A DNA stretch of 64,000 bases from a virus: IMG/VR virus record IMGVR_UViG_3300035212_002004, positions 40,100-104,099 of that record; one strand, written 5' to 3'. Both the position numbers and the translations under genes were made by a program. The notes beneath the pieces were generated by a model. It was given only the letters and a program-made list of their open reading frames with translations. It had not been told where the DNA came from and ran no database searches. Positions 1,265 to 13,067 of the stretch are shown here, piece after piece. The stretch's first letter is position 1. Each line of letters starts with the position of its first letter.

Positions 1265-1293
1265 AATATACAAAAAAAGACTTGAATAAACAA
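1265..1293 (-). promoter_or_regulatory. Putative early promoter (TTGTTT-17-TATATT)
   Basis: Coding-strand -10 TATATT (1265-1270) lies exactly 17 bp from TTGTTT (1288-1293). It is a weaker member of the TTGGAT-17-TATATT set found at five other places. The -35 part overlaps the terminator hairpin 1278-1297, so termination of the RNA upstream and initiation for 1052-1237 share the same DNA. Confidence 0.5.
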
Positions 1294-1297
1294 GCCT
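1278..1297 (-). terminator. Rho-independent terminator of the 1.3-1.9 kb RNA
   Basis: On the minus strand AGGCTTG-TTTATT-CAAGTCT forms a 7-bp stem with 6-nt loop, followed by seven Ts. It would end transcription coming from the structured region above. Confidence 0.75.
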
Positions 1298-1310: not shown

Positions 1311-1862
1311 TTTAAAAAAATTTAACACCTCAGTTGCACTCTGGTTTGTAATGGGGCTACTATGGGAAATCCTGAATTCGTCGTGTTCGTCACAGGCGTA
1401 CTAGTCCTTATCTTCCTTTGAACTTAATCGATTACAATTGGCGAGGTTTACCACTATCAACACGCCTATTCTGTTTCATGTGTTGGTTACAGACAACCAT
1501 CGAGGTGTTAAATTTCTATATTATTTTGTTGCTGGGATGTAAAGCATATAGACTATGTCAAATACAAAATCAAAGTCAAAAACCTTCCACTACCACAAGG
1601 GCAAGGACAAAAACTAAGTCTCAGTTTCGCTAGCCACTTTTAATCTCATCCCCCTTTTCAGGGTTCGCACGAGTAACATGTCTAGCTGTTGAGTTCTATC
1701 TCAGTTTTGGTTTAAGTTTGTAGGGAAGCGAGTTTATGGATGGCTCGAGGCCACGGTTATCATGATTGATTAATATATATCGCATATAGTTTGTATGATA
1801 ACTCCACTATCCCAGCATAAAGCTTTGGAGGATCGGCTTGTGCCTACCTCCTTAGCACCAAA
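1311..1862 (-). ncRNA. Candidate large structured noncoding RNA
   Basis: About 550 bases without a convincing ORF on the coding strand and visibly more G/C-rich than flanking genes. It is bracketed by a stop codon (1863) and a strong terminator (1278-1297). Helices seen directly: a 14-bp perfect pairing of 1318-1331 with 1502-1515; an 8-bp pairing of 1756-1763 with 1795-1802; 1827-1831 with 1847-1851, which encloses 1835-1837 with 1842-1844; hairpins at 1485-1498 and 1741-1753. Size, structure density and position beside a tRNA array recall the large ornate phage RNAs (ROOL, GOLLD), but I cannot match it to either. A Bacteroidota-style -7 box (TAATTTGG, about 1853-1860) lies at its 5' end. 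The 71-codon plus-strand frame at 1418-1633 starts with TTG and opposes all transcription, so it is not favoured. Confidence 0.6.
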
Positions 1863-2135
1863 TTATTTTTCTCCTTCTTGGAATATTTTCTCCCAAGCTT
1901 GTTGTGATTCGTAAGGTCTTGCTACGTACTCATTTAACGCTTCCATTCCTTCTTTAATTGTTGTAAATGGAATTTCTTTACATCCTACTGAGATAATACA
2001 TCCAATTGATAGGAATCTAATTTTTACTTCATAATTTGTAAGACATTGTTGTCTTGATGGTTTCCACTGTTCTTCTGCTAATGGTCCATTTTCTACTAGT
2101 CTTGTTGGTGCTGCTACTGGTTCTACTTCGTTCAT
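1863..2135 (-). CDS. Hypothetical protein, 90 aa
   Basis: Small acidic protein of unknown function. The central stretch NYEVKIRFLSIGCIISVGC is beta-strand-like, and the C-terminus is helical and charged. It forms a tight minus-strand cluster with 2142-2450 and 2452-3363 (gaps of 6 and 1 bases). Its stop codon directly abuts the putative large RNA, which could therefore also be made as the 3' part of this transcript. Confidence 0.6.
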   Translation of the reverse strand: MNEVEPVAAPTRLVENGPLAEEQWKPSRQQCLTNYEVKIRFLSIGCIISVGCKEIPFTTIKEGMEALNEYVARPYESQQAWEKIFQEGEK

Positions 2136-2141
2136 AATAAC

Positions 2142-2450
2142 TTAATTTGATTGTTGATAACTTTGTTGATTTTCTACTTCTTCTATGAATGGTTGATTTT
2201 CCAACTCTTCTATAACTATATTAATTGCATCAGGATAATGAGTGTGTCCAGATTGAAAATATATTCCCACCAAACCTAATACCTCATTGTCAATGTAGTG
2301 ACGATTTTTACCTTTACCGTTTACTATCTCGTGATCCATTGACACATCATCCCATTCATCCAATACAATTCTATTACCACCCTTTTCTCTATAGTGGAGC
2401 CTGATCATATTATTATGACTGAAGTTTTTAATAAACTCTCCTAGCTTCAT
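2142..2450 (-). CDS. Hypothetical protein, 102 aa
   Basis: Unknown function. The segment RLHYREKGGNRIVLDEWDDVSMDHEIVNGKG resembles a small beta-rich domain, and the C-terminus is Gln/Asn-rich and probably disordered. One base separates it from 2452-3363, so the two are translationally linked. No membrane segment or known motif. Confidence 0.6.
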   Translation of the reverse strand: MKLGEFIKNFSHNNMIRLHYREKGGNRIVLDEWDDVSMDHEIVNGKGKNRHYIDNEVLGLVGIYFQSGHTHYPDAINIVIEELENQPFIEEVENQQSYQQSN

Positions 2451-2451
2451 A

Positions 2452-3363
2452 CTATTTTAATTGGTTTAAAAACTCATCTACTACTGATTGAAATCTTTCT
2501 GCTACTTCAATTTTTAAATTAACAGCATCTTGAATTCTTGCTTGACGTTTTTCTTCAAACTCATGTTGAGCGTTACGTTCTTCTCCAGCCCATTTATCGT
2601 AAGCTAGTTTATAAGTATTTGCTGCTTCTGCATTCTCAGTATTTACTCTTGCTTGAATAATTCCTCTTTCTTTCTGAATTCTGGCATTCTCAGAAGTAGT
2701 AGCATTTTTAATCTTAGATTTAAAGTAATTTACTTTTTGTTCATATCCTCTGTGCAGAGCTGCTAATTCTTCATGAATTAAAAGCAACTGTGATGGGGTA
2801 TGATGAATTGAGATTTTCATAGGGGTTTTCTTTCCTACTTCAATTTCCATAAACTCTAAAGTTTTAATGGTAGGAAGTTCTGCTCTTAATCTATCCAATT
2901 TACCTCCTTTATGAATAAATTGCCCAATATGTGAAGCATAAGCCTCTGCTTCTAAGAATTCGTTGTACTCGGCTGTAGTTAAAGTATTCCAACCAAAATC
3001 CTCATCCACTTCACTTGGAATTGTTTCCGATATAAGTTTTGGTCTCTCTGGGGATTCTACTTCGTATTTGAATCGTTCTTGTTTGATTTTATTAATCAAC
3101 TCGTCCTTAGCTTTGATGTTCTCCATCAAGAATGCTTGAGTAGCAGATAATCTTGCTTTAGCAGTTAATAATTCAACTACATTTTCTGGAATTGGGTTTC
3201 CTTTAACTTCAGTATAGGTTTCTTCTCCTATCACTAGTTCTTTAGAAACGTTATTGATATCAGCTAATTGTGCTGTAAGATCTTTTGAACGTTGGTTACA
3301 CAAGTTTGAGATTGATTGTGCTTGAGACATTGATAACCCTTTTGATGCTAACGAATTTTTCAT
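2452..3363 (-). CDS. Coiled-coil protein of unknown function
   Basis: 303 residues, almost wholly helical with long heptad-rich stretches at both ends and a Glu/Ala/Arg-rich C-terminal third, so an elongated coiled-coil homodimer is likely. The middle contains a short non-helical segment (about 125-190) with IKTLEFMEIEVGKKTPMKI. No catalytic motif or signal peptide. It is the first gene of the 3363-1863 unit. The start has the usual AT-rich leader. Confidence 0.65.
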   Translation of the reverse strand: MKNSLASKGLSMSQAQSISNLCNQRSKDLTAQLADINNVSKELVIGEETYTEVKGNPIPENVVELLTAKARLSATQAFLMENIKAKDELINKIKQERFKYEVESPERPKLISETIPSEVDEDFGWNTLTTAEYNEFLEAEAYASHIGQFIHKGGKLDRLRAELPTIKTLEFMEIEVGKKTPMKISIHHTPSQLLLIHEELAALHRGYEQKVNYFKSKIKNATTSENARIQKERGIIQARVNTENAEAANTYKLAYDKWAGEERNAQHEFEEKRQARIQDAVNLKIEVAERFQSVVDEFLNQLK

Positions 3364-3375
3364 AACTATGATTTT

Positions 3376-3771
3376 TTATTTATTTTTAATGATTTCTATT
3401 AATTTTTTAAGACATTCAAGTTCTGCTTCTTCGTAAGATTTAAAATCTGTTTCTAATTCAGATATTGATTGAGAATGATTTATTATTTGATAATCACAAT
3501 TAACATCATTTTCTAATGAATTGTCTAATCCTATTGAATGATATAAACCATACTTCTCTCTAAACCAACTAAATGCTTGTTGGTATAATGGTGCTGAAAC
3601 TACTATACTTGATGAATTGTGATTAAATAGAATTGGTTTAGGATTAATACAATCACTATTCATTATTGCATAATCACCTAACAATGGGTCAAAATATCCA
3701 AAACAAGGTTCATCAAATCCTAATTCTTTTAAAATTAATGCTTGTTCGTAAGGTGCAAATTCTTTTTCCAT
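3376..3771 (-). CDS. Paralogue of the 651-1046 protein
   Basis: 131 residues, the same length as 651-1046. It shares the N-terminal helix (EQALILKELGFD), a central AFSWFREKYGLYHSI corresponding to LQKWLREVHNLYVE, and a C-terminal YEEAELECLKKLIEI helix. It is more diverged in the middle. Function unknown. It has its own promoter (3793-3821) 22 bases upstream of the start, and is transcribed toward 3363. Confidence 0.7.
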   Translation of the reverse strand: MEKEFAPYEQALILKELGFDEPCFGYFDPLLGDYAIMNSDCINPKPILFNHNSSSIVVSAPLYQQAFSWFREKYGLYHSIGLDNSLENDVNCDYQIINHSQSISELETDFKSYEEAELECLKKLIEIIKNK

Positions 3772-4284: not shown

Positions 4285-4314
4285 AACTTTTATTTTTTAT
4301 TGGATAAAATATTG

Positions 4315-4387
4315 TGGTCTCGGGGAATTACGATATCCCAGCCTCTTTCTTATGAGGAAATTGCTCTACCTTTGAGCTACGAGACCA
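4315..4387 (-). tRNA. tRNA with CAT anticodon (Met or lysidine-Ile)
   Basis: Full cloverleaf with acceptor TGGTCTC/GAGACCA and anticodon loop CTCATAA. The T-loop is unusual (ATCGTAA instead of TTCRANY). One of three CAT tRNAs, so initiator, elongator Met and Ile2 roles may be split among them. Sequence alone does not settle which. Confidence 0.8.
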
Positions 4388-4393
4388 ATTAGT

Positions 4394-4462
4394 TGCGGAT
4401 TCAGGACTCGAACCTGGCCTCTGGGTTATGAGCCCGGAATGCTACCAATTACACCAAACCGC
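4394..4462 (-). tRNA. tRNA-Met (CAT)
   Basis: Acceptor GCGGTTT/AATCCGC with one mismatch, D-arm with GGT, anticodon loop CTCATAA, canonical T-arm GGTTCGAGTCC. It ends 7 bases from the preceding tRNA. Confidence 0.85.
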
Positions 4463-4564
4463 GATGTATGCTTTAATGAAAAGAGGTAAGCTACTTCAGT
4501 TATCTGCGTTTACTGAGTATTTAAAGCCGTCATTGGCAAAGTGGCTACTTACTTATTCATTTTG

Positions 4565-4635
4565 CGGTCTAGAACGGTAACGCTCCGTCTACTCAACAGT
4601 GACAGTGTTGGATGATACTTCTTCACTACTAGACC
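4565..4635 (-). tRNA. tRNA-Asp (GTC)
   Basis: Acceptor GGTCTAG/CTAGACC with G73, anticodon stem CAACA/TGTTG and loop CTGTCAC. The T-arm has the non-canonical loop AGCGTTA, shared with tRNA-Gln here; tRNA-Lys has AGCATTA. The 100 bases above it (4463-4564) hold no gene I can recognise. Confidence 0.75.
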
Positions 4636-4642
4636 TTTTTGG

Positions 4643-4714
4643 TGGAGCTACCGAGATTCGAACTCGGAATAATAGAATGCAAATCTATCGTGATGCCAAT
4701 TTCACTATAGCCCC
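4643..4714 (-). tRNA. tRNA-Ala (TGC)
   Basis: Acceptor GGGGCTA/TAGCTCC with A73, loop TTTGCAT, canonical T-loop TTCGAAT. Confidence 0.95.
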
Positions 4715-4720
4715 TTTTGT

Positions 4721-4790
4721 AGCCCTGCCGGGAGTCGAACCCGACTTTTATGGATGAAAACCATATGTCCTAACCGATAGACGACAGGGC
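4721..4790 (-). tRNA. tRNA-Glu (TTC)
   Basis: Acceptor GCCCTGT/GCAGGGC, anticodon loop TTTTCAT, T-arm CGGGTTCGACTCCCG. No encoded CCA. Confidence 0.95.
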
Positions 4791-4792
4791 CG

Positions 4793-4867
4793 TGGAGCAG
4801 ATGCGGAGAATCGAACTCCGATCTTCTGGTTGGAAGCCAAAAGTAATAACCATTATACGACATCTGC
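4793..4867 (-). tRNA. tRNA-Gly (TCC), CCA encoded
   Basis: Acceptor GCAGATG/CATCTGC, anticodon loop CTTCCAA, canonical T-arm. It is followed by an encoded CCA, which the other tRNAs here lack. Confidence 0.95.
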
Positions 4868-4873
4868 ATTTTG

Positions 4874-4947
4874 AGGTTCTTGTCAGGATCGAACTGACTC
4901 TATTCAGCGTTACAAATGCTGTGCACCACCACTTATGCGTAAGAACC
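4874..4947 (-). tRNA. tRNA-Thr (TGT)
   Basis: Acceptor GGTTCTT/AAGAACC, loop TTTGTAA with an A-C mismatch closing the anticodon stem, T-arm GTCAGTTCGATCCTGAC. Confidence 0.9.
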
Positions 4948-4953
4948 AAGTAA

Positions 4954-5020
4954 ATTACAGCCGGTTTTCGTATCCGTTCTCCTACTGCCAAGCAGGTGCT
5001 TTGCTATAAGCTAGCTGTAA
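4954..5020 (-). tRNA. Degenerate tRNA, possibly Ala (GGC)
   Basis: Perfect 7-bp acceptor TTACAGC/GCTGTAA and a D-arm are present. The anticodon arm reads CCTGC-TTGGCA-GTAGG with only six loop bases, and the T-arm (CGG...CCG) lacks the TTC loop. At 67 nt it is short. It may be a decaying or highly diverged tRNA; the anticodon is uncertain. Confidence 0.45.
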
Positions 5021-5028
5021 CTTTTTTA

Positions 5029-5095
5029 TGTAGGCGACTAGAACTCCAGTCCTTCTGTCCAATTAAGGAACTCATATCCGGTAACCCGGTCCTAC
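5029..5095 (-). tRNA. Degenerate tRNA-like element
   Basis: A partial acceptor pairs GTAGG with CCTAC, and a central CCTT/AAGG stem has an 8-nt loop containing TTGG. The T-arm pairs ACT/AGT only. It is tRNA-sized and in line with the array, but the anticodon cannot be read with confidence. Confidence 0.35.
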
Positions 5096-5107
5096 TATAT
5101 TCTACTG

Positions 5108-5187
5108 TACCCAAGGGGGGAGTCGAACCCCCAAGCTTACGCCACGGCTTCTAAGACCGCTGTGTCTACCAGTTCCACCACTCGGGC
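5108..5187 (-). tRNA. tRNA-Leu (TAG)
   Basis: Class II tRNA: acceptor GCCCGAG/CTTGGGT, anticodon loop CTTAGAA, extended variable arm, T-arm GGGGGTTCGACTCCCCC. Confidence 0.95.
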
Positions 5188-5211
5188 ATTTACCGCATGT
5201 GCGGTCACTTA

Positions 5212-5367
5212 TCAATCGGTAGCTCCCTCTTGATGTCCATCTGTGGGTGTAACACATTTGGTAGAGGGTCGAACCTTAAATATCGTATCATGAAGCATTT
5301 TTGATATTGTTGAATATGCTATATCCAACTTTCTTGCTTTTATGATTATAATTTCTTTATCTTTCAT
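5212..5367 (-). CDS. Possible small protein, 51 aa
   Basis: Short frame beginning MKDKEIIIIKARKLDIAY, immediately downstream of a promoter of the early set (5373-5401). The N-terminal half could form a helix-turn-helix-like pair of helices (KARKLDIAYSTISKML), similar in feel to the DNA-binding tails of phage endonucleases, so it might be a fragment of one. The C-terminal half has low complexity and may not be coding. Kept mainly because of the well-placed promoter. Confidence 0.35.
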   Translation of the reverse strand: MKDKEIIIIKARKLDIAYSTISKMLHDTIFKVRPSTKCVTPTDGHQEGATD

Positions 5368-5372
5368 ACTTA

Positions 5373-5401
5373 AATATACGAACTATATTTTTACTATCCT
5401 A
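5373..5401 (-). promoter_or_regulatory. Early-type promoter TAGGAT-17-TATATT
   Basis: Coding-strand TAGGAT (5396-5401), 17-bp spacer ending GTTCG, TATATT (5373-5378). The frame at 5212-5367 begins 6 bases below the -10; the promoter also serves the tRNA cluster 5187-4315. Confidence 0.65.
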
Positions 5402-5425
5402 GCTTTTTTTAATTTACTTTTAATC

Positions 5426-5497
5426 TTAATTGCCATCATTTATTTTAATTCCAAAAAATATAAAGACTACAGCCACAATTATAAAACATACTATCAT
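5426..5497 (-). CDS. Possible membrane micropeptide, 23 aa
   Basis: MIVCFIIVAVVFIFFGIKIN is almost entirely a transmembrane helix. The frame has a start, stop and A/T-rich leader and lies between tRNA-Cys and the promoter at 5.4 kb. It could be a real phage micropeptide or chance; no family recognised. Confidence 0.3.
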   Translation of the reverse strand: MIVCFIIVAVVFIFFGIKINDGN

Positions 5498-5511
5498 AAT
5501 TTATTTTTTTG

Positions 5512-5584
5512 AGGGACTATAAAGAATCGAACTTTACAATCTATTCGTTTGCTGCGAATAAGCTTAACCATCAGCCTTAGTCCC
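5512..5584 (-). tRNA. tRNA-Cys (GCA) with A33
   Basis: Acceptor GGGACTA/TAGTCCC, U73 as expected for Cys, anticodon stem ATTCG/CGAAT, loop CAGCAAA. Position 33 is A, not the near-universal T. T-loop TTCGATT. Confidence 0.8.
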
Positions 5585-5588
5585 ATTT

Positions 5589-5658
5589 ATCACCTAGCCT
5601 GACCTTCCAGACAGTACAAGTCAGTATTAATTTCACGTGCTGTTTTGTAGTAGGTGAT
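5589..5658 (-). other. tRNA-like closed stem without T-arm
   Basis: An 8-bp perfect terminal stem (ATCACCTA/TAGGTGAT) encloses 54 bases with a CTGAC-TTGTACT-GTCTG arm resembling a Tyr(GTA) anticodon arm. There is no room for a T-arm. tRNA relic or another small RNA. Confidence 0.35.
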
Positions 5659-5663
5659 TTATT

Positions 5664-5891
5664 TTATTTATTCAGATCTTGTATAATAGGTCCTAAATCT
5701 TTTACAGGTATCTTACAATCCTCTTGACCTTCTCCTTCTGAGTTTCTCCACATATAGTTGTAAACTGCTTTTGTTTTTCTTTCCATCTCAAATGTAAAGT
5801 ATAGGTTTGGAGTTTCTAATTCATATACATTCCAATCATCTCCTCTTCCGTCAGTATATTGATTTACTAATTTAAAATCTGTTATTTTCAT
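5664..5891 (-). CDS. Hypothetical protein, 75 aa
   Basis: Small soluble protein of unknown function with alternating aromatic and charged residues (WNVYELETPNLYFTFEM) consistent with a beta-sheet. It has its own early-type promoter (5910-5938) with the start 19 bases downstream. No membrane segment. It is isolated between tRNA-like element 5589-5658 and an HNH gene. Confidence 0.65.
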   Translation of the reverse strand: MKITDFKLVNQYTDGRGDDWNVYELETPNLYFTFEMERKTKAVYNYMWRNSEGEGQEDCKIPVKDLGPIIQDLNK

Positions 5892-5909
5892 ATTTCTTTC
5901 TTATACTTT

Positions 5910-5938
5910 AATATACGAACTATATTTCTAATATCCAA
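5910..5938 (-). promoter_or_regulatory. Early-type promoter TTGGAT-17-TATATT
   Basis: TTGGAT (5933-5938), 17-bp spacer, TATATT (5910-5915) on the coding strand. The spacer and flanks are nearly identical to the 3.8 kb copy. It overlaps the 3' end of the HNH gene 5928-6626. Confidence 0.75.
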
Positions 5939-6626
5939 CTATTTTGTTAGATTTTTTTAAATTATCTTTTTTCCACAATGGTTGATAATTACTATAATGA
6001 TTTAATCTTACAATATCTTCCTCTGTTTGAGCTGAAGAGATTGGTATTTTATGATCTAATTCCCATTGACCATAATTGTAAATAGTCATACCTTCTTGAA
6101 ATAAGTTCTGAATATGTTCTGTAAATTCTAATAGAGTGCATCCTAGTATTTCTTCAGTTCCTATACTTTTTCTATAAGTACCATTGCAGCTCCTTTTGAA
6201 TGAACCTCCTATTAAACTTCTTGTATTATATATTAATTTATAAATTGGATCTACTTTTTTTCGTTCCCTATGATAATTTACATAATATCCAGGATTCCTT
6301 TCATTCCAACTACTCTTTTTCTCTCTAGGTTTTTTAATAACCTCTTTTTTAGGTCTAGGATGAGTTTTATAGTACTCTCTTTGCCTTAACTTTATCTCCT
6401 CTTTATTTTGTTGGTAATTTAACCTATCTCTTTCTCTTTGCTTATCCCTATTAGCATCTCTATACTCTTCTCCATATTTTTGTAGAGATTCTTTATTATC
6501 CTCTTTCCATCTTGCAGTTTCTATTTTTCTACAAGCTCTGCAGGTATAGTCGTAGTTATTAAATACAGATTTTGATATGTTAATTCCTACTTCTAATTCT
6601 ACTTTACACTTTATACACTCTTTCAT
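5928..6626 (-). CDS. HNH homing endonuclease with N-terminal zinc finger
   Basis: 232 residues. The N-terminus carries a four-Cys knuckle (C-I-K-C, then C-R-A-C about 25 residues later), followed by a long Arg/Lys/Glu-rich helix. The C-terminal HNH-like nuclease has QWELDHKIPISSA (DH pair), then NYQPLWKKDNLKKSN. The same architecture is found at 18754-19425 and 54541-55089, so three related elements occur in this window. It is inserted between small genes beside the tRNA array. Free-standing homing nuclease by family; no intron boundaries seen. Confidence 0.85.
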   Translation of the reverse strand: MKECIKCKVELEVGINISKSVFNNYDYTCRACRKIETARWKEDNKESLQKYGEEYRDANRDKQRERDRLNYQQNKEEIKLRQREYYKTHPRPKKEVIKKPREKKSSWNERNPGYYVNYHRERKKVDPIYKLIYNTRSLIGGSFKRSCNGTYRKSIGTEEILGCTLLEFTEHIQNLFQEGMTIYNYGQWELDHKIPISSAQTEEDIVRLNHYSNYQPLWKKDNLKKSNKIVGY

Positions 6627-6763
6627 ATTAAAATAAAAGGAGAAATTAAAGAAAACACATGGTACGTGCTAAGCTCTAAAATCTCCTATAATGTTTTTAT
6701 TGAACAGTACCATTGTTCATTTAATATAAATATCACAAAATATAGGAAACCTTAATATATTTT
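6627..6763 (-). other. Hairpin-rich spacer
   Basis: Non-coding. On the coding strand an AGGAGA...TCTCCT pairing (ends near 6640 and 6690) is followed by T-rich sequence and may be a terminator. A GAACA/TGTTC hairpin and an AATATTTAT-like element (GATATTTAT, about 6724-6732) precede it. Confidence 0.4.
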
Positions 6764-7270
6764 TTAAAAGAATAGGAAAGCTTCCCATTCCTTAGGTACA
6801 TAGTTTAAGGTTTTTAAGAGCATTAGGTAATGAGGTCTTTTTGGTTCTGGAATTTCCTTTCCATATTCCTCAAGAGTTAAATCTGCTTTAGCTCCATTAC
6901 AAGATCTACATGCTGTTACTAAATTGTCCCAAGCATTTTCTCCACCTTTTGATTGTGGAATGACATGGTCAAGTGTTAATGACTTTATGTTACTTGATCC
7001 GCAATAAACACATTCATAATTATCCCTTCGATAAACATTTTCTCTCGTTAGAGGAACTTTTTGAATGTTTTGTTTTACATATTTAAAAACCCTAATGATT
7101 GAAGGTTTAAAAATTTCTAGTTTTGGATTTACTAATCCGAATGTTTCTGGATGTTCAGCTATTATTTCTGCATTACCCTTATACGAAATCACGAAAGCTC
7201 TTTCGGTAGAGATGATGCTTCTTGCCATAAAGCTTGAATCAATTACCAGTGTTCTTTGGTACTTACTCAT
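6764..7270 (-). CDS. HNH endonuclease (CxxC type)
   Basis: 168 residues from the preferred ATG at 7270; an in-frame ATG at 7294 would add 8 residues. The N-terminal domain (TLVIDSSFMARSIISTERAF...SYKGNAEII) is the partner domain common in stand-alone bacterial and phage HNH proteins. The HNH core is CVYCGSSN, then LTLDHVIPQSKGG, then NLVTACRSCNGAK: paired Cys zinc ligands, catalytic DH, and a terminal Asn. Intact. It follows tRNA-Trp and precedes a hairpin-rich spacer (6627-6763). Confidence 0.85.
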   Translation of the reverse strand: MSKYQRTLVIDSSFMARSIISTERAFVISYKGNAEIIAEHPETFGLVNPKLEIFKPSIIRVFKYVKQNIQKVPLTRENVYRRDNYECVYCGSSNIKSLTLDHVIPQSKGGENAWDNLVTACRSCNGAKADLTLEEYGKEIPEPKRPHYLMLLKTLNYVPKEWEAFLFF

Positions 7271-7303
7271 GATTTTAATTTTTAAATGAAACAATTTATT
7301 TTG

Positions 7304-7374
7304 CGCAGGCCGTAAGAATCGAACTTACCCGTAGCAGTTTTGGAGACCGTACCGACACCTTGTCTGTGACCTGC
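7304..7374 (-). tRNA. tRNA-Trp (CCA)
   Basis: Acceptor GCAGGTC/GGCCTGC with G73, anticodon loop CTCCAAA, T-arm GTAAGTTCGATTCTTAC. Confidence 0.95.
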
Positions 7375-7377
7375 ATT

Positions 7378-7420
7378 TGTAGAGTATCGCTTACTCTACC
7401 AAAGTTGATCAGACTTCTTT
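7378..7420 (-). repeat. Paired-hairpin element, copy 1
   Basis: Two hairpins: GTAGAGTA/TACTCTAC with loop TCGCT on the plus strand, and AAGT/ACTT with loop TGATCAG. About 85% identical to 7624-7665, with a compensatory A-T to G-C change in the first stem. It lies in the spacer between tRNA-Arg(TCT) and tRNA-Trp; the rest of 7421-7468 shows no gene. Confidence 0.6.
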
Positions 7421-7468
7421 AATAGCTCTTTAAGTTGTTACCATCTGTCTATCCATGCGATTTTTTTG

Positions 7469-7541
7469 TACCCCTAGAAGAATTCGAATCTCCATTTTAC
7501 ATCTTAGAAGGATGTTGCATTTCCATTTATGCTATAAGGGC
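7469..7541 (-). tRNA. tRNA-Arg (TCT)
   Basis: Acceptor GCCCTTA/TAGGGGT, anticodon arm ACATC-CTTCTAA-GATGT, T-loop TTCGAAT. Confidence 0.95.
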
Positions 7542-7547
7542 ATTTTG

Positions 7548-7619
7548 AGGTCCTACCAGAACTCGAATCTGGATTCTATCGTTCGTAGCGATAAGTTTTT
7601 CCAATTAAACTATAAGACC
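7548..7619 (-). tRNA. tRNA-Arg (ACG)
   Basis: Acceptor GGTCTTA/TAGGACC, anticodon arm TATCG-CTACGAA-CGATA. A34 implies inosine modification by the host TadA. Confidence 0.95.
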
Positions 7620-7623
7620 AGAC

Positions 7624-7665
7624 TGTAGGATATCGCTTAACCTACGAAGTTGATCACACTTCTTT
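7624..7665 (-). repeat. Paired-hairpin element, copy 2
   Basis: Second copy of the 7378-7420 element: GTAGGATA/TAACCTAC stem (one A-A mismatch) with the same TCGCT loop, then GAAGT/ACTTC with loop TGATCAC. It sits between tRNA-Leu(TAA) and tRNA-Arg(ACG). Both copies are followed toward higher coordinate by CGATTTTTTTGTA before the next tRNA. Confidence 0.6.
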
Positions 7666-7686
7666 TCTATACGAACGATTTTTTTG

Positions 7687-7759
7687 TATCCCTGACTGGA
7701 GTCGAACCAGCAGCTTACGAGGCTTAAACTCGTTGTGTTTACCATTTCACCACAGGGAT
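7687..7759 (-). tRNA. tRNA-Leu (TAA), short variable loop
   Basis: Acceptor ATCCCTG/CAGGGAT, anticodon arm ACGAG-TTTAAGC-CTCGT, T-arm CTGGTTCGACTCCAG. The variable region is only about five bases, unlike the long arm expected for Leu. Confidence 0.85.
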
Positions 7760-7854
7760 GTAAAGCCAATCCCGTAGATTGGCAGCTCAACTTTAGGCAT
7801 TGAGTTTGCAAGAACTAGTCTCTGGCCAAGTCAATCTCCCTTTGGGAGTTGTCG
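7760..7854 (-). other. Inter-tRNA hairpin spacer
   Basis: No gene. Three hairpins are visible: GCCAATC/GATTGGC, CTCAA/TTGAG and CTCCC/GGGAG. These may be processing signals between tRNA-His and tRNA-Leu. Confidence 0.4.
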
Positions 7855-7927
7855 TGTGAAAGGTGGGACTCGAACCCACAATCTCCTGAATCACAATCAG
7901 ACGCTTTACCATTCAGCTACAATCACC
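7855..7927 (-). tRNA. tRNA-His (GTG)
   Basis: Anticodon arm TCTGA-TTGTGAT-TCAGG, T-arm GTGGGTTCGAGTCCCAC, and an extra 5' G usable as G-1. The acceptor GTGATTG/CTTTCAC has two T-T mismatches. Confidence 0.9.
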
Positions 7928-7934
7928 ATGTTAG

Positions 7935-8003
7935 TACCGAGTGTTGGATTCGAACCAACCTAAGGGCGGATATGAGCCATCCTTGATCCCAAGCTCCCTC
8001 GGT
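7935..8003 (-). tRNA. tRNA with CAT anticodon (third copy)
   Basis: Acceptor ACCGAGG/ACTCGGT, T-arm TTGGTTCGAATCCAA, anticodon loop CTCATAT with one mismatch in its stem. Candidate Ile2 (lysidine) or Met. Confidence 0.75.
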
Positions 8004-8008
8004 AATTA

Positions 8009-8073
8009 AAAGTAACGTAGGACTCGAACCTACTCATGCCAAGTTAATAGCAATTATCCACCATGCATTACTT
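8009..8073 (-). tRNA. tRNA, anticodon undetermined
   Basis: Acceptor AAGTAAT/GTTACTT and T-arm GTAGGTTCGAGTCCTAC are clear. The anticodon arm TGCTA/TGGCA closes only six bases (TTAACT), so no anticodon can be assigned safely. Confidence 0.65.
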
Positions 8074-8076
8074 TTG

Positions 8077-8159
8077 AGGAAAGAATGAGAATCGAACTCA
8101 ATCCAATTACGAACGTCTCGCTTAGCAGGCGGACTCAACACCATGTTGATTTACTTTCC
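8077..8159 (-). tRNA. tRNA-Ser (GCT)
   Basis: Class II: acceptor GGAAAG/CTTTCC, anticodon loop CTGCTAA, long variable arm, T-loop TTCGATT. Confidence 0.93.
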
Positions 8160-8165
8160 ATTTTG

Positions 8166-8237
8166 TACTCCTAGGAAGAATTGAACTTCCATTTCATCCT
8201 TATCAGAGATGTGTGCTAACCATTCTACTATAGGAGC
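8166..8237 (-). tRNA. tRNA-Ile (GAT)
   Basis: Acceptor GCTCCTA/TAGGAGT, anticodon arm CATCT-CTGATAA-GGATG, T-loop TTCAATT. Confidence 0.95.
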
Positions 8238-8359
8238 AATTTGTAACGTTTAATCTGATAACCTTACGAAGAGTTGTTCCTTATTAATCCAATTGTAATG
8301 TTAGTTGTTGGAGGGAAAGTTACACATCTAAACCCGTCAGGAGATACTAACACCCCTTG
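8238..8359 (-). other. Inter-tRNA spacer
   Basis: 122 bases with no gene, no T-arm and no strong hairpin that I can see. AT-rich centre with a G/C-richer left end. Confidence 0.3.
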
Positions 8360-8431
8360 CTCCTCCCCTAGGACTCGAACCTAGATAAGATGATTAACAG
8401 TCATCCGTAATAACCTTTATACGAGAGAGGA
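8360..8431 (-). tRNA. tRNA-Asn (GTT)
   Basis: Acceptor TCCTCTC/GGGAGGA with G73, anticodon arm GATGA-CTGTTAA-TCATC, T-arm CTAGGTTCGAGTCCTAG. Confidence 0.95.
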
Positions 8432-8437
8432 ATTTTG

Positions 8438-8510
8438 AGCCACATAACAGGAATCGAACCTGTCTGCTGAATCTTGTCAAATACTCTCATCTTGTCGACC
8501 TTTCAGAGGC
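8438..8510 (-). tRNA. tRNA, anticodon undetermined
   Basis: A perfect T-arm (ACAGGTTCGATTCCTGT) is present. The proposed acceptor GCCTCTG/ATGTGGC has only four pairs, and the anticodon region GAGTATTTGACAAGATTC does not close a standard 5-bp stem. GACAAGAT is duplicated within it. Diverged or decaying tRNA. Confidence 0.5.
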
Positions 8511-8613
8511 ATATTCTATTTAACCCTTTATGATCTTCCACCCTACGTCTAGGACAGTCCATACATAATTGACTAAAAGATCCAGTCGTCACCGTTGACT
8601 ATGGACTTGTTTG
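8511..8613 (-). other. Spacer with tRNA-like closed stem
   Basis: On the coding strand AGTCCAT...ATGGACT closes about 38 bases containing a GACT/AGTC hairpin (roughly 8556-8607). Cloverleaf-like ends without a T-arm. No ORF. Confidence 0.35.
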
Positions 8614-8686
8614 TGGACCCTGTAGGAATCGAACCTACTCCTCTAGTTCTTCAGACTAGCGTACGCACCAGCTATACCAAAGGTCC
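8614..8686 (-). tRNA. tRNA-Phe (GAA)
   Basis: Acceptor GGACCTT/AGGGTCC with A73, anticodon arm CTAGT-CTGAAGA-ACTAG, canonical T-arm. Confidence 0.95.
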
Positions 8687-8699
8687 AAGGTTAATAAAG

Positions 8700-8770
8700 T
8701 GGGGCCAGTAGGAATCGAACCTACCCAGTGAGCTTTTACAGAGCTGCTCGGCACCTTGCCTGTTGTCCCC
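8700..8770 (-). tRNA. tRNA-Tyr (GTA)
   Basis: Acceptor GGGGACA/TGGCCCC (one mismatch), anticodon loop CTGTAAA, T-arm GTAGGTTCGATTCCTAC. No long variable arm, unlike most bacterial Tyr tRNAs. Confidence 0.9.
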
Positions 8771-8816
8771 AATTACACTTTCCAATTAAATCTGTATAAG
8801 TGTGAAACCCTCTTCG

Positions 8817-8887
8817 TACCTCGTAGTGGAATCGAACCACTGCCATTTCCATGTAAAAGAAATACGCTTCCATTACGCCAACGAGGC
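8817..8887 (-). tRNA. tRNA-Val (TAC)
   Basis: Acceptor GCCTCGT/ACGAGGT with A73, anticodon stem TTTCT/GGAAA and loop TTTACAT, T-arm AGTGGTTCGATTCCACT. Confidence 0.92.
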
Positions 8888-8934
8888 AAATGCACTTCCT
8901 GTTCTCTACGGTATAGTATAGTGCTAACCATTTG

Positions 8935-9005
8935 TACCCCCTGAAGGTAATGCTCCTTCTTCCCGATATTAAAAGTATCGTGCTTCACTTTAAAGCCTAG
9001 AGGGC
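8935..9005 (-). tRNA. tRNA-Lys (TTT), atypical T-loop
   Basis: Acceptor GCCCTCT/AGGGGGT with A73, anticodon arm CGATA-CTTTTAA-TATCG. The T-stem GAAGG/CCTTC encloses AGCATTA rather than TTCRANY. Confidence 0.88.
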
Positions 9006-9067
9006 AAATTTAATTCTATGCGTCGGTGCTTATTAGGCGGTGATCTATGAATTAGTAACAGTCTCTC

Positions 9068-9140
9068 GTCTAATAGTTAGGATTCGAACCTAAGTACTGC
9101 TCAGTCCAAGTGAGCCATGAAACCGTGCTTCGCTACTAGA
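9068..9140 (-). tRNA. tRNA-Pro (TGG)
   Basis: Acceptor TCTAGTA/TATTAGA, anticodon arm GCTCA-CTTGGAC-TGAGC, T-arm TTAGGTTCGAATCCTAA. The 62 bases before it (9006-9067) hold no recognisable gene. Confidence 0.93.
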
Positions 9141-9151
9141 AATTTATTTGT

Positions 9152-9220
9152 TGCCCATGAAGGTAACGCTCCTTCTCCGCATGTGTCAAAGACATGTGTA
9201 CTACTTTTATACGAACGGGC
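9152..9220 (-). tRNA. tRNA-Gln (TTG), atypical T-loop
   Basis: Acceptor GCCCGTT/CATGGGC, anticodon arm CATGT-CTTTGAC-ACATG, T-stem GAAGG/CCTTC around AGCGTTA, the same odd loop as in tRNA-Asp. Confidence 0.88.
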
Positions 9221-9226
9221 ACAATG

Positions 9227-9667
9227 CTATTTTAAATTATGTTTTATTTTTAATCTATGGACTCTATTGTAATTATCACCTTTTGGAGATAAACCAGCAT
9301 CTCTTAATATGTCAGCTATACTTCCTCCTTTTTTTATAGATTCAATTAATACATCTTCATGCACCCATTTAGTATGGGTTTCTTTTTTATAGTTTTTAGA
9401 TCTAAAAGTTGATGTTTGTGAATGACAATTAGGACACATATATCTTAAATTCCCTCTAGTATTATTATGTTTATCACCATCTATATGGTCTAATTCTAAT
9501 AAAAGAGGTTTTTCATTCCATTCTTCTAATATTCCACATTCTACACATTTAGGTTCTCCTAACCATTTATCTTTTTTTAACCAGTCTCTAAAAGCAGGAA
9601 CAAATGTTATTGTCATTTCCCCATTTAATATTTTTTCAATATTATTTTTAATATCAGTACGTTTCAT
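9227..9667 (-). CDS. HNH homing endonuclease
   Basis: 146 residues from ATG 9667. The frame is open farther up to 9751, but that would run into tRNA-Ser, so the internal start is preferred. It follows an AATATTTAT element (9683-9691). The core is CVECGILEEW, then LLLELDHIDGDKHNN, then NLRYMCPNCHSQTSTF: a Cys-zinc HNH nuclease of the phage/mobile type (LDHIDGD with CPNCHSQT). The C-terminal helix-turn-helix-like tail (SIADILRDAGLSPKGDNY) probably aids DNA binding. It sits inside the tRNA array between tRNA-Ser(TGA) and tRNA-Gln. Confidence 0.88.
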   Translation of the reverse strand: MKRTDIKNNIEKILNGEMTITFVPAFRDWLKKDKWLGEPKCVECGILEEWNEKPLLLELDHIDGDKHNNTRGNLRYMCPNCHSQTSTFRSKNYKKETHTKWVHEDVLIESIKKGGSIADILRDAGLSPKGDNYNRVHRLKIKHNLK

Positions 9668-9726
9668 ATAATATATTTGATAATAAATATTACATCGTCT
9701 TAAAGACTTAAACATACTTTTAATAG

Positions 9727-9810
9727 AAGAGAGTGTGGGACTCGAACCCACAACGGTTTAACCCGCTACGACTTTTCAAGAGTCGCTCTTGATCCAGCCA
9801 GATACTCTCC
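9727..9810 (-). tRNA. tRNA-Ser (TGA)
   Basis: Class II: acceptor GGAGAGT/ACTCTCT, anticodon arm CGACT-CTTGAAA-AGTCG, long variable arm, T-arm TGTGGGTTCGAGTCCCACA. Confidence 0.95.
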
Positions 9811-12191: not shown

Positions 12192-13067
12192 TTATTTTAT
12201 ATGGTTTTCTAAAACTTGAGCAACATGATCCCTAGCAATTTCCCAACTTACAGGACCTTCTTCAAGGTTCGCATAAGCAACTGGATCTTTTCTTCCTAGT
12301 TTAATAAATGCTTCGATACGTTCTACTGAAGATGCTGATTTATAATCTGAGAACCATTCTCCTGTCCAAACATTAAATTCTTTACCTGGGAATTGTCCTT
12401 CTTTCCAGGGTTTATATCCCTCAATCCAAATTGGCTTATAAGAAGTATTAGTTCTCGAATAAACTTCATCAAAATCTAATCCTAATTCTCTACACAATAC
12501 CTCTCCATCTTTTAAGATATCGAATTTATCTCCTTCTAAATAAGGTGTAAAATAACCTACTCTTTCAGCTTCCCAATTTCCTAATCTAAAAGCTGTATCA
12601 TCAGCATCTCTAAACTCTTGTCTACAATCAGGATAAATTGCATGATCACCAGCATGAATACCTAAAGCAATATCACAAGTTTCTCCTGTTCTATTTGCAA
12701 CTGATAAAGCTACTGCTTGAGAAATTGAAGCAAATATTTTGTTTCTATTAGGAACAACTGTTGCTTTCATATTATCTTCTGCATAATGACCTTCAGGTAC
12801 ATCTTCACCTCCTGTTACTAAAGCTGAATCTAATAAATCAACTAATCCATCTAGTTTAATTTGACGATAACGTAATTCAGTCTGTGATGATGATTCCTCT
12901 CCAATATAGTTTACTAAGGATTGAGCTCTCTCTAGCTCTACTCTGTGTTTTTGACCGTAATCAAAGCTAATAGCAGTGACTGTGTCATACTCTTTTAGAC
13001 ATCTAAGCAATAATGTGCTTGAGTCCATTCCTCCACTTAAGGATACTACAACATGTTTTTTAGACAT
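12192..13067 (-). CDS. queC: QueC-like 7-cyano-7-deazaguanine synthase
   Basis: 291 residues. QueC converts carboxydeazaguanine, ammonia and ATP to preQ0 in 7-deazaguanine biosynthesis. Seen: N-terminal PP-loop SLSGGMDSST (about 9-18), FDYGQKH, VVPNRNKIFASIS, GIHAGDHAIYPDCR and a C-terminal VERIEAFIKLGRKDPVAY block. The family's C-terminal zinc site (C-x8-9-C-x2-C-x2-C) is absent: the segment reads SRTNTSYKPIW and then SASSVERIEAF. Size is larger than typical QueC (about 220-240). It is two genes from a DpdA-like gene, so preQ0 is probably destined for phage DNA. QueD, QueE and FolE are not in this window and may lie elsewhere or come from the host. Confidence 0.88.
   Translation of the reverse strand: MSKKHVVVSLSGGMDSSTLLLRCLKEYDTVTAISFDYGQKHRVELERAQSLVNYIGEESSSQTELRYRQIKLDGLVDLLDSALVTGGEDVPEGHYAEDNMKATVVPNRNKIFASISQAVALSVANRTGETCDIALGIHAGDHAIYPDCRQEFRDADDTAFRLGNWEAERVGYFTPYLEGDKFDILKDGEVLCRELGLDFDEVYSRTNTSYKPIWIEGYKPWKEGQFPGKEFNVWTGEWFSDYKSASSVERIEAFIKLGRKDPVAYANLEEGPVSWEIARDHVAQVLENHIK

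Follow-up and report, generated by a model that had tools for sequence, protein, structure and literature searches.

ROOL and GOLLD, among the closest described systems, are large structured phage RNAs that lie near tRNA genes, and neither their function nor a protein partner is known (PMC12286853). The locus considered here comes from a stretch of viral DNA of 64,000 nucleotides, hereafter the window, which belongs to a T4-like myophage; its capsid protein shares 57% identity with the one of Flavobacterium phage immuto, making a Bacteroidota host likely. A first-pass annotation proposed that positions 1311-1862, beside a tRNA array, hold one noncoding RNA of about 550 nt that might be ROOL, GOLLD or a new class. 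Identity with ROOL or GOLLD was not borne out, as their Rfam covariance models give no match in the window at the gathering threshold, in the region at E values up to 10, or in relatives at E values up to 1. At gathering score the window yields tRNAs as its only Rfam 15 families, and neither ARAGORN nor Rfam detects a tmRNA in the region. The new-class reading is supported in the form of two families, of which only one, RNA-A, has a strict link to a protein gene, p303. Homologues in which paired positions covary, the test named beforehand, strongly support structured noncoding RNA in the region beside the tRNA array, but the single 550-nt RNA gives way to two, both on the minus strand and listed here with the terminator:

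1526-1861, minus strand: RNA-A, a structured RNA of about 335 nt with its 5' end near 1861 and its 3' end near 1526, recognised from homologues, covariation and a covariance-model match
1318-1515, minus strand: RNA-B, the other structured RNA, whose closing helix is the 14-bp 1502-1515/1318-1331, with seven aligned homologues
1278-1297, minus strand: an intrinsic terminator that these phages carry in repeated copies, which recur in relatives

Much of what the annotation read directly from the letters holds. G+C is raised, at 0.38-0.41 against 0.23-0.33 in the adjoining genes; no credible conserved ORF lies across the region; and 1318-1331 (AAATTTAACACCTC) and 1502-1515 are perfectly complementary, a 14-bp match of which well under 0.01 would be expected by chance within 550 AT-rich bases, by the estimate made here. 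The terminator is likewise real, and with its flanks it has copies of about 92% identity in immuto (L002); the same hairpin and flanks are reused at several sites within the genomes of the window phage and immuto. The 8-bp helix suggested for 1756-1763 (GTTATCAT) and 1795-1802 is complementary as described, but it falls in a variable stretch outside the conserved structure. The supposed Bacteroidota-style -7 box at the RNA start, TAATTTGG, is an incomplete TAnnTTTG box that is not kept in relatives, and thus gives no promoter evidence. A small antisense ORF (MSNTKSKSK...) was rejected because its ATG is lost in relatives. Folding of the minus strand beats 99 of 100 dinucleotide shuffles (z -2.3), with the plus strand weaker (z -1.8); alone the minus-strand score would be weak support, and it is the homologues that decide.

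Those homologues indicate that RNA-A is a new structured RNA family, with strand and fold given by sequence, and it is almost certain that a conserved RNA exists here as such. Across 58 non-redundant loci its length runs from 295 to 374 nt (median 324), and the covariance model matches 1546-1732 of the window with 169.5 bits. The named helices are as follows:

1859-1861, minus strand: 5' strand of P0, pairing with 1526-1528 and joining both ends of RNA-A
1822-1856, minus strand: hairpin P1/P1a/P1b (1854-1856 with 1822-1824, 1847-1851 with 1827-1831, 1842-1843 with 1836-1837), with double-sided changes in 10 of 10 pairs
1809-1816, minus strand: 5' strand of P2, pairing with 1531-1538, with double-sided changes in 8 of 8 pairs
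1720-1728, minus strand: 5' strand of P3, pairing with 1584-1593, with double-sided changes in 9 of 9 pairs
1691-1702, minus strand: hairpin P5, GAG-AUAGAA-CUC, highly conserved, with 86% of cells paired
1629-1686, minus strand: stem-loop P4, 1676-1686 with 1629-1639, with 97% of cells paired and double-sided changes in 7 of 9 pairs

In a home-made, phylogeny-aware G-test with APC, in which the null replays substitutions on a FastTree tree (30 replicates), 14 canonical and mutually nested pairs rank highest, eight of which score beyond anything in the null. A second test took 44 diverse sequences, aligned independently with MAFFT, and the 42 pairs of the named structure P0-P5, whose cells are paired in 89.8% of cases as compared to 71.6% after shuffling. 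Double-sided changes occur in 37 of the 42 pairs, amounting to 391 cells against 125.5 in shuffles, and the covariation score is 0.570 against 0.238 in shuffles and at most 0.20 when the structure is slid; none of 500 shuffles reaches the observed paired fraction, double-sided pairs, double-sided cells or covariation score. The middle pair of P0 is formed in all 44 sequences and has changed on both sides in 20, and one pair of P4 occurs as A-U, G-U, U-G and G-C, which identifies the minus strand as the transcribed one. Support for P5 is weak because the hairpin hardly varies. RNAalifold recovers most of the P0-P5 helices, plus a short extension of P2. A terminator directly 3' of RNA-A appears in only 15 of the 58 loci by a strict folding test and is not claimed as a general feature.

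RNA-B, of about 200 nt, is a second family with fewer members than RNA-A. Homologues were identified on seven or more contigs, part of them from records without p303, and RNA-B is found among tRNA genes as well; on L116, the same contig as L017, it stands separate from RNA-A. Its closing helix is swapped for a different helix in L102 and carries compensatory changes in L100, while its inner structure, resting on seven sequences, is only a prediction. Most of 28 contigs matching an RNA-B pattern share a short word alone and were set aside.

The tie between RNA-A and a protein gene involves three genes of the window:

2452-3363, minus strand: p303, encoding a 303-aa protein of an unrecognised family, always upstream of RNA-A in the loci examined
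2142-2450, minus strand: a 102-aa ORF inserted between p303 and RNA-A in the window phage
1863-2135, minus strand: a 90-aa ORF inserted between p303 and RNA-A in the window phage, with relatives in some loci

In counts that are conditional on how the loci, all on environmental contigs, were found, RNA nucleotides 1-340 (window about 1861-1526) lie 3' of p303 in every locus holding enough sequence among 80 IMG/VR loci fetched with the window p303, the exceptions being three fragments that end at or near the p303 gene. A second set of 80 loci, fetched with a diverged p303 profile and sharing many contigs with the first, likewise has RNA-A 3' of p303, with a short fragment as the sole locus lacking a match. 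Contigs found by RNA patterns alone (12 plus 1, partly overlapping the first set) all have p303 directly upstream, and the next commonest neighbouring gene family accompanies p303 and RNA-A in 25 of 60 loci. From the p303 stop codon to the start of RNA-A the gap has a median of 6.5 nt, and it is no longer than 13 nt in 47 of 58 non-redundant loci. Adjacency this close can also reflect cis regulation, with RNA-A acting as a 3' UTR element that controls the stability or translation of p303 mRNA by autoregulation. Such an element is quite unlikely, however, because an ORF or a longer gap intervenes in 11 of the 58 loci, the window included, and leaves RNA-A intact, and because 300-375 nt with paired ends far exceeds the needs of a stability hairpin. 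RNA-A probably functions in partnership with p303.

The p303 protein itself is mildly acidic (pI 5.7-6.3) and has a predicted fold of pLDDT 84 with no match in the PDB at E <= 0.001. Pfam gives no match above the cut-off, no recognised RNA-binding domain was found, and searches of Pfam, PHROGs and the PDB by sequence and fold return nothing beyond the protein's own homologue A0A6J5N6M1. These properties form a counter-argument to p303 as the binding protein, in that RNA binding is not predicted from the protein. A type III toxin-antitoxin system (ToxIN, with a tandem-repeat antitoxin RNA and a toxin of the ToxN fold) was also rejected, since RNA-A lies 3' of the gene and p303 has no Pfam or PDB fold match. 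No isolated phage with a close p303 turned up, nor any p303 match in immuto. The RNA-A family has probably been overlooked because Rfam lacks it and deposited phage genomes hardly contain it, with only 2 of 50,697 records.

On the two sides of the P3 3' strand lie arrays of hexamers with the consensus N(C/U)UU(U/A)G, G recurring with a period of six bases:

1596-1620, minus strand: hexamer array 1, G at 1620, 1614, 1608, 1602 and 1596, significantly periodic in 58 of 58 sequences against shuffles
1553-1583, minus strand: hexamer array 2, G at 1583, 1577, 1571, 1565, 1559 and 1553, significantly periodic in 56 of 58 against shuffles

The hexamer register often runs on unbroken through the P3 strand, and complementarity of the arrays to the window's tRNAs is no better than in shuffles. 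A period of three or six might instead mean that the conserved arrays code for a small peptide, and a beta strand is a conceivable reading of the alternating GNN-NUN triplets, but this is improbable in the extreme: in 33 of 58 sequences none of the three sense frames stays open through the arrays, U or A fills 492 of the 522 cells at what would be the third codon position and C fills 11, the antisense ATG ORF is unconserved, and the helices covary with G-U pairs. Protein coding of the arrays was accordingly rejected and is in practice already refuted.

The hexamers bear as well on a possible host target, as the place of Hfq, ProQ or CsrA is taken in Bacteroidota by RRM-1 proteins such as RbpB (PMC11697453, PMC12119571). 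RNA-A could be a sponge for a host RNA-binding protein, its hexamers serving as decoy sites and p303 being merely co-transcribed, and both the repetition of U-rich single-stranded hexamers and the abundance of RRM proteins that bind single-stranded RNA in the host group (PMC11697453, PMC12119571) fit that role. It is an unlikely one nonetheless, as a decoy would need neither strict p303 linkage nor an elaborate fold, and the RbpB motif of Bacteroides, GUAGGAUA, in the form cited in PMC12119571, is unlike the hexamers and does not match them.

Both the arrays and the p303 linkage extend from lakes to guts. A tblastn search with a diverged p303 reached two gut-associated phages at 24-26% identity, and a scan with their p303 reached two further relatives, L207 and L208/L209 (identical there); profile comparison relates the two p303 groups with 98.3% probability (E 1.2e-14). 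Each gut-group relative has an RNA directly 3' of p303 with a long closing helix, a long P3-like helix at the place equivalent to P3, and hexamer arrays, array 2 among them, and three of these RNAs fold with z -3.5 to -3.9. A covariance model, R1, confined to the P3 domain and built without gut-group sequences, matches three of the RNAs at rough E values of 2.7e-4 to 7e-4, and that of L126 marginally at 0.06. In 21 phage contigs without p303, R1 finds nothing at E up to 1. When 16 whole records were scanned, the p303 site was the sole match in 12 of the 13 records having any, G010 showing a second, marginal match at E 0.02, and three records without p303, scanned whole, gave no match.

In most of the freshwater group, p303 and RNA-A close the phage tRNA array, which in the window is the following feature:

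4314-9810, minus strand: tRNA array with 18 tRNAs in the ARAGORN count, lying on the p303 strand and upstream of that gene

In L126 and L207, p303 is immediately preceded by a tRNA gene, and RNA ligase, HNH and metallophosphatase genes occur near p303/RNA-A loci. The link to tRNAs is not universal, as the fetched flank of about a dozen diverged loci contains no tRNA gene. Other features of these neighbourhoods can be recorded in their own right. ARAGORN misses a tRNA at 9151-9221 (minus strand) that scores 42 bits with Rfam, and the minus strand at 12195-13067, near the array, holds a gene for a QueC-like 7-cyano-7-deazaguanine synthase (queuosine or deazaguanine DNA modification). Two 131-aa proteins flanking p303/RNA-A, at 651-1046 and 3376-3771 on the minus strand, both match phrog_12005 (8.7e-24 and 0.011) and possibly represent a duplicated family. 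In L049 (IMGVR_UViG_3300033512_000125; p303 at 6001-6903) a conserved Gln (GQFIH) is an in-frame TAG, which suggests either reading as Gln or a sequence error. Three diverse phages carry, less than 1 kb upstream of p303, tRNAs whose anticodon TTA (reading UAA) marks them as putative suppressors (L051 5246-5320, L061 5674-5751, L064 5843-5920), and ARAGORN calls a permuted tmRNA at 3034-3565 of L043, overlapping a tRNA-Arg inside the phage tRNA array, probably a false call.

The best explanation of the locus, offered tentatively, is that RNA-A is the RNA half of a phage RNP, a hexamer scaffold acting with p303 and probably tuning translation. Strict pairing with p303, a compact fold with joined ends and a six-base repeat together suggest an RNP with one hexamer per subunit. 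RNA-A would share a transcript with p303 at the end of the tRNA operon, be released from the 3' UTR by cutting or trimming, and fold into a compact body with its ends joined by P0 and with P3 holding two series of single-stranded hexamers. Each hexamer would then take up one subunit of a multimeric protein, p303 being the likeliest, such that RNA-A would serve as an assembly scaffold or sponge, as CsrB does for CsrA and the trp leader for TRAP. The RNP would probably protect or tune translation, through the tRNA pool, during infection, a role proposed because of the tRNA and RNA-ligase surroundings. Taken separately, binding of the hexamers by a multimer is possible rather than probable, and it is rather doubtful that the whole constitutes a new kind of RNP machine, distributed from lakes to guts in phages whose hosts are probably Bacteroidota, with a protein of new fold seated on a hexamer-ruled RNA at six bases per subunit and protecting or reprogramming translation during infection.

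Among known systems, OLE RNA with its OLE-associated proteins resembles this proposal in being a large, ornate RNA of bacteria that acts together with dedicated proteins, but its hosts, extremophilic Firmicutes, are different, and the Rfam search gives no OLE match here. CsrB-type sponges and TRAP-binding leaders carry short single-stranded motifs, GGA and (G/U)AG, repeated at regular spacing. RNA-A too has regularly spaced short repeats, but these putative binding sites follow N(C/U)UU(U/A)G with a six-base period and are set within a conserved fold. ROOL, a phage or prophage RNA often near tRNA islands and with an elaborate covarying fold, is similar to RNA-A in its proximity to phage tRNA genes, but measures about 600-660 nt and has no known protein partner (PMC12286853), whereas RNA-A is smaller and tied to p303. 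GOLLD is also a phage RNA near tRNA islands, one having first been seen downstream of a Met-tRNA gene (PMC12286853), but it exceeds 800 nt in many members, as compared to 295-374 nt for RNA-A and about 200 nt for RNA-B, and as far as described it is tied to no protein gene. The shared setting of phage and tRNA islands (PMC12286853) would suit an RNA-only assembly like the ROOL and GOLLD nanocages, formed by RNA-A or RNA-B with p303 functionally unrelated; smaller size, a lack of sequence or model similarity to ROOL and GOLLD, and the tie of RNA-A to one protein gene make this decidedly unlikely. No description of the RNA-A family was found in the literature searched, whose coverage largely leaves out subscription journals and preprints. 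Thus the kind of RNA is already known from ROOL and GOLLD (PMC12286853), while the RNA-A family, its p303 partner and the hexamer rule appear new. To a tRNA-array setting like that of ROOL and GOLLD, RNA-A adds a strictly linked protein gene and a repeat resembling binding sites, and through this candidate partner the function of such an RNA becomes approachable.
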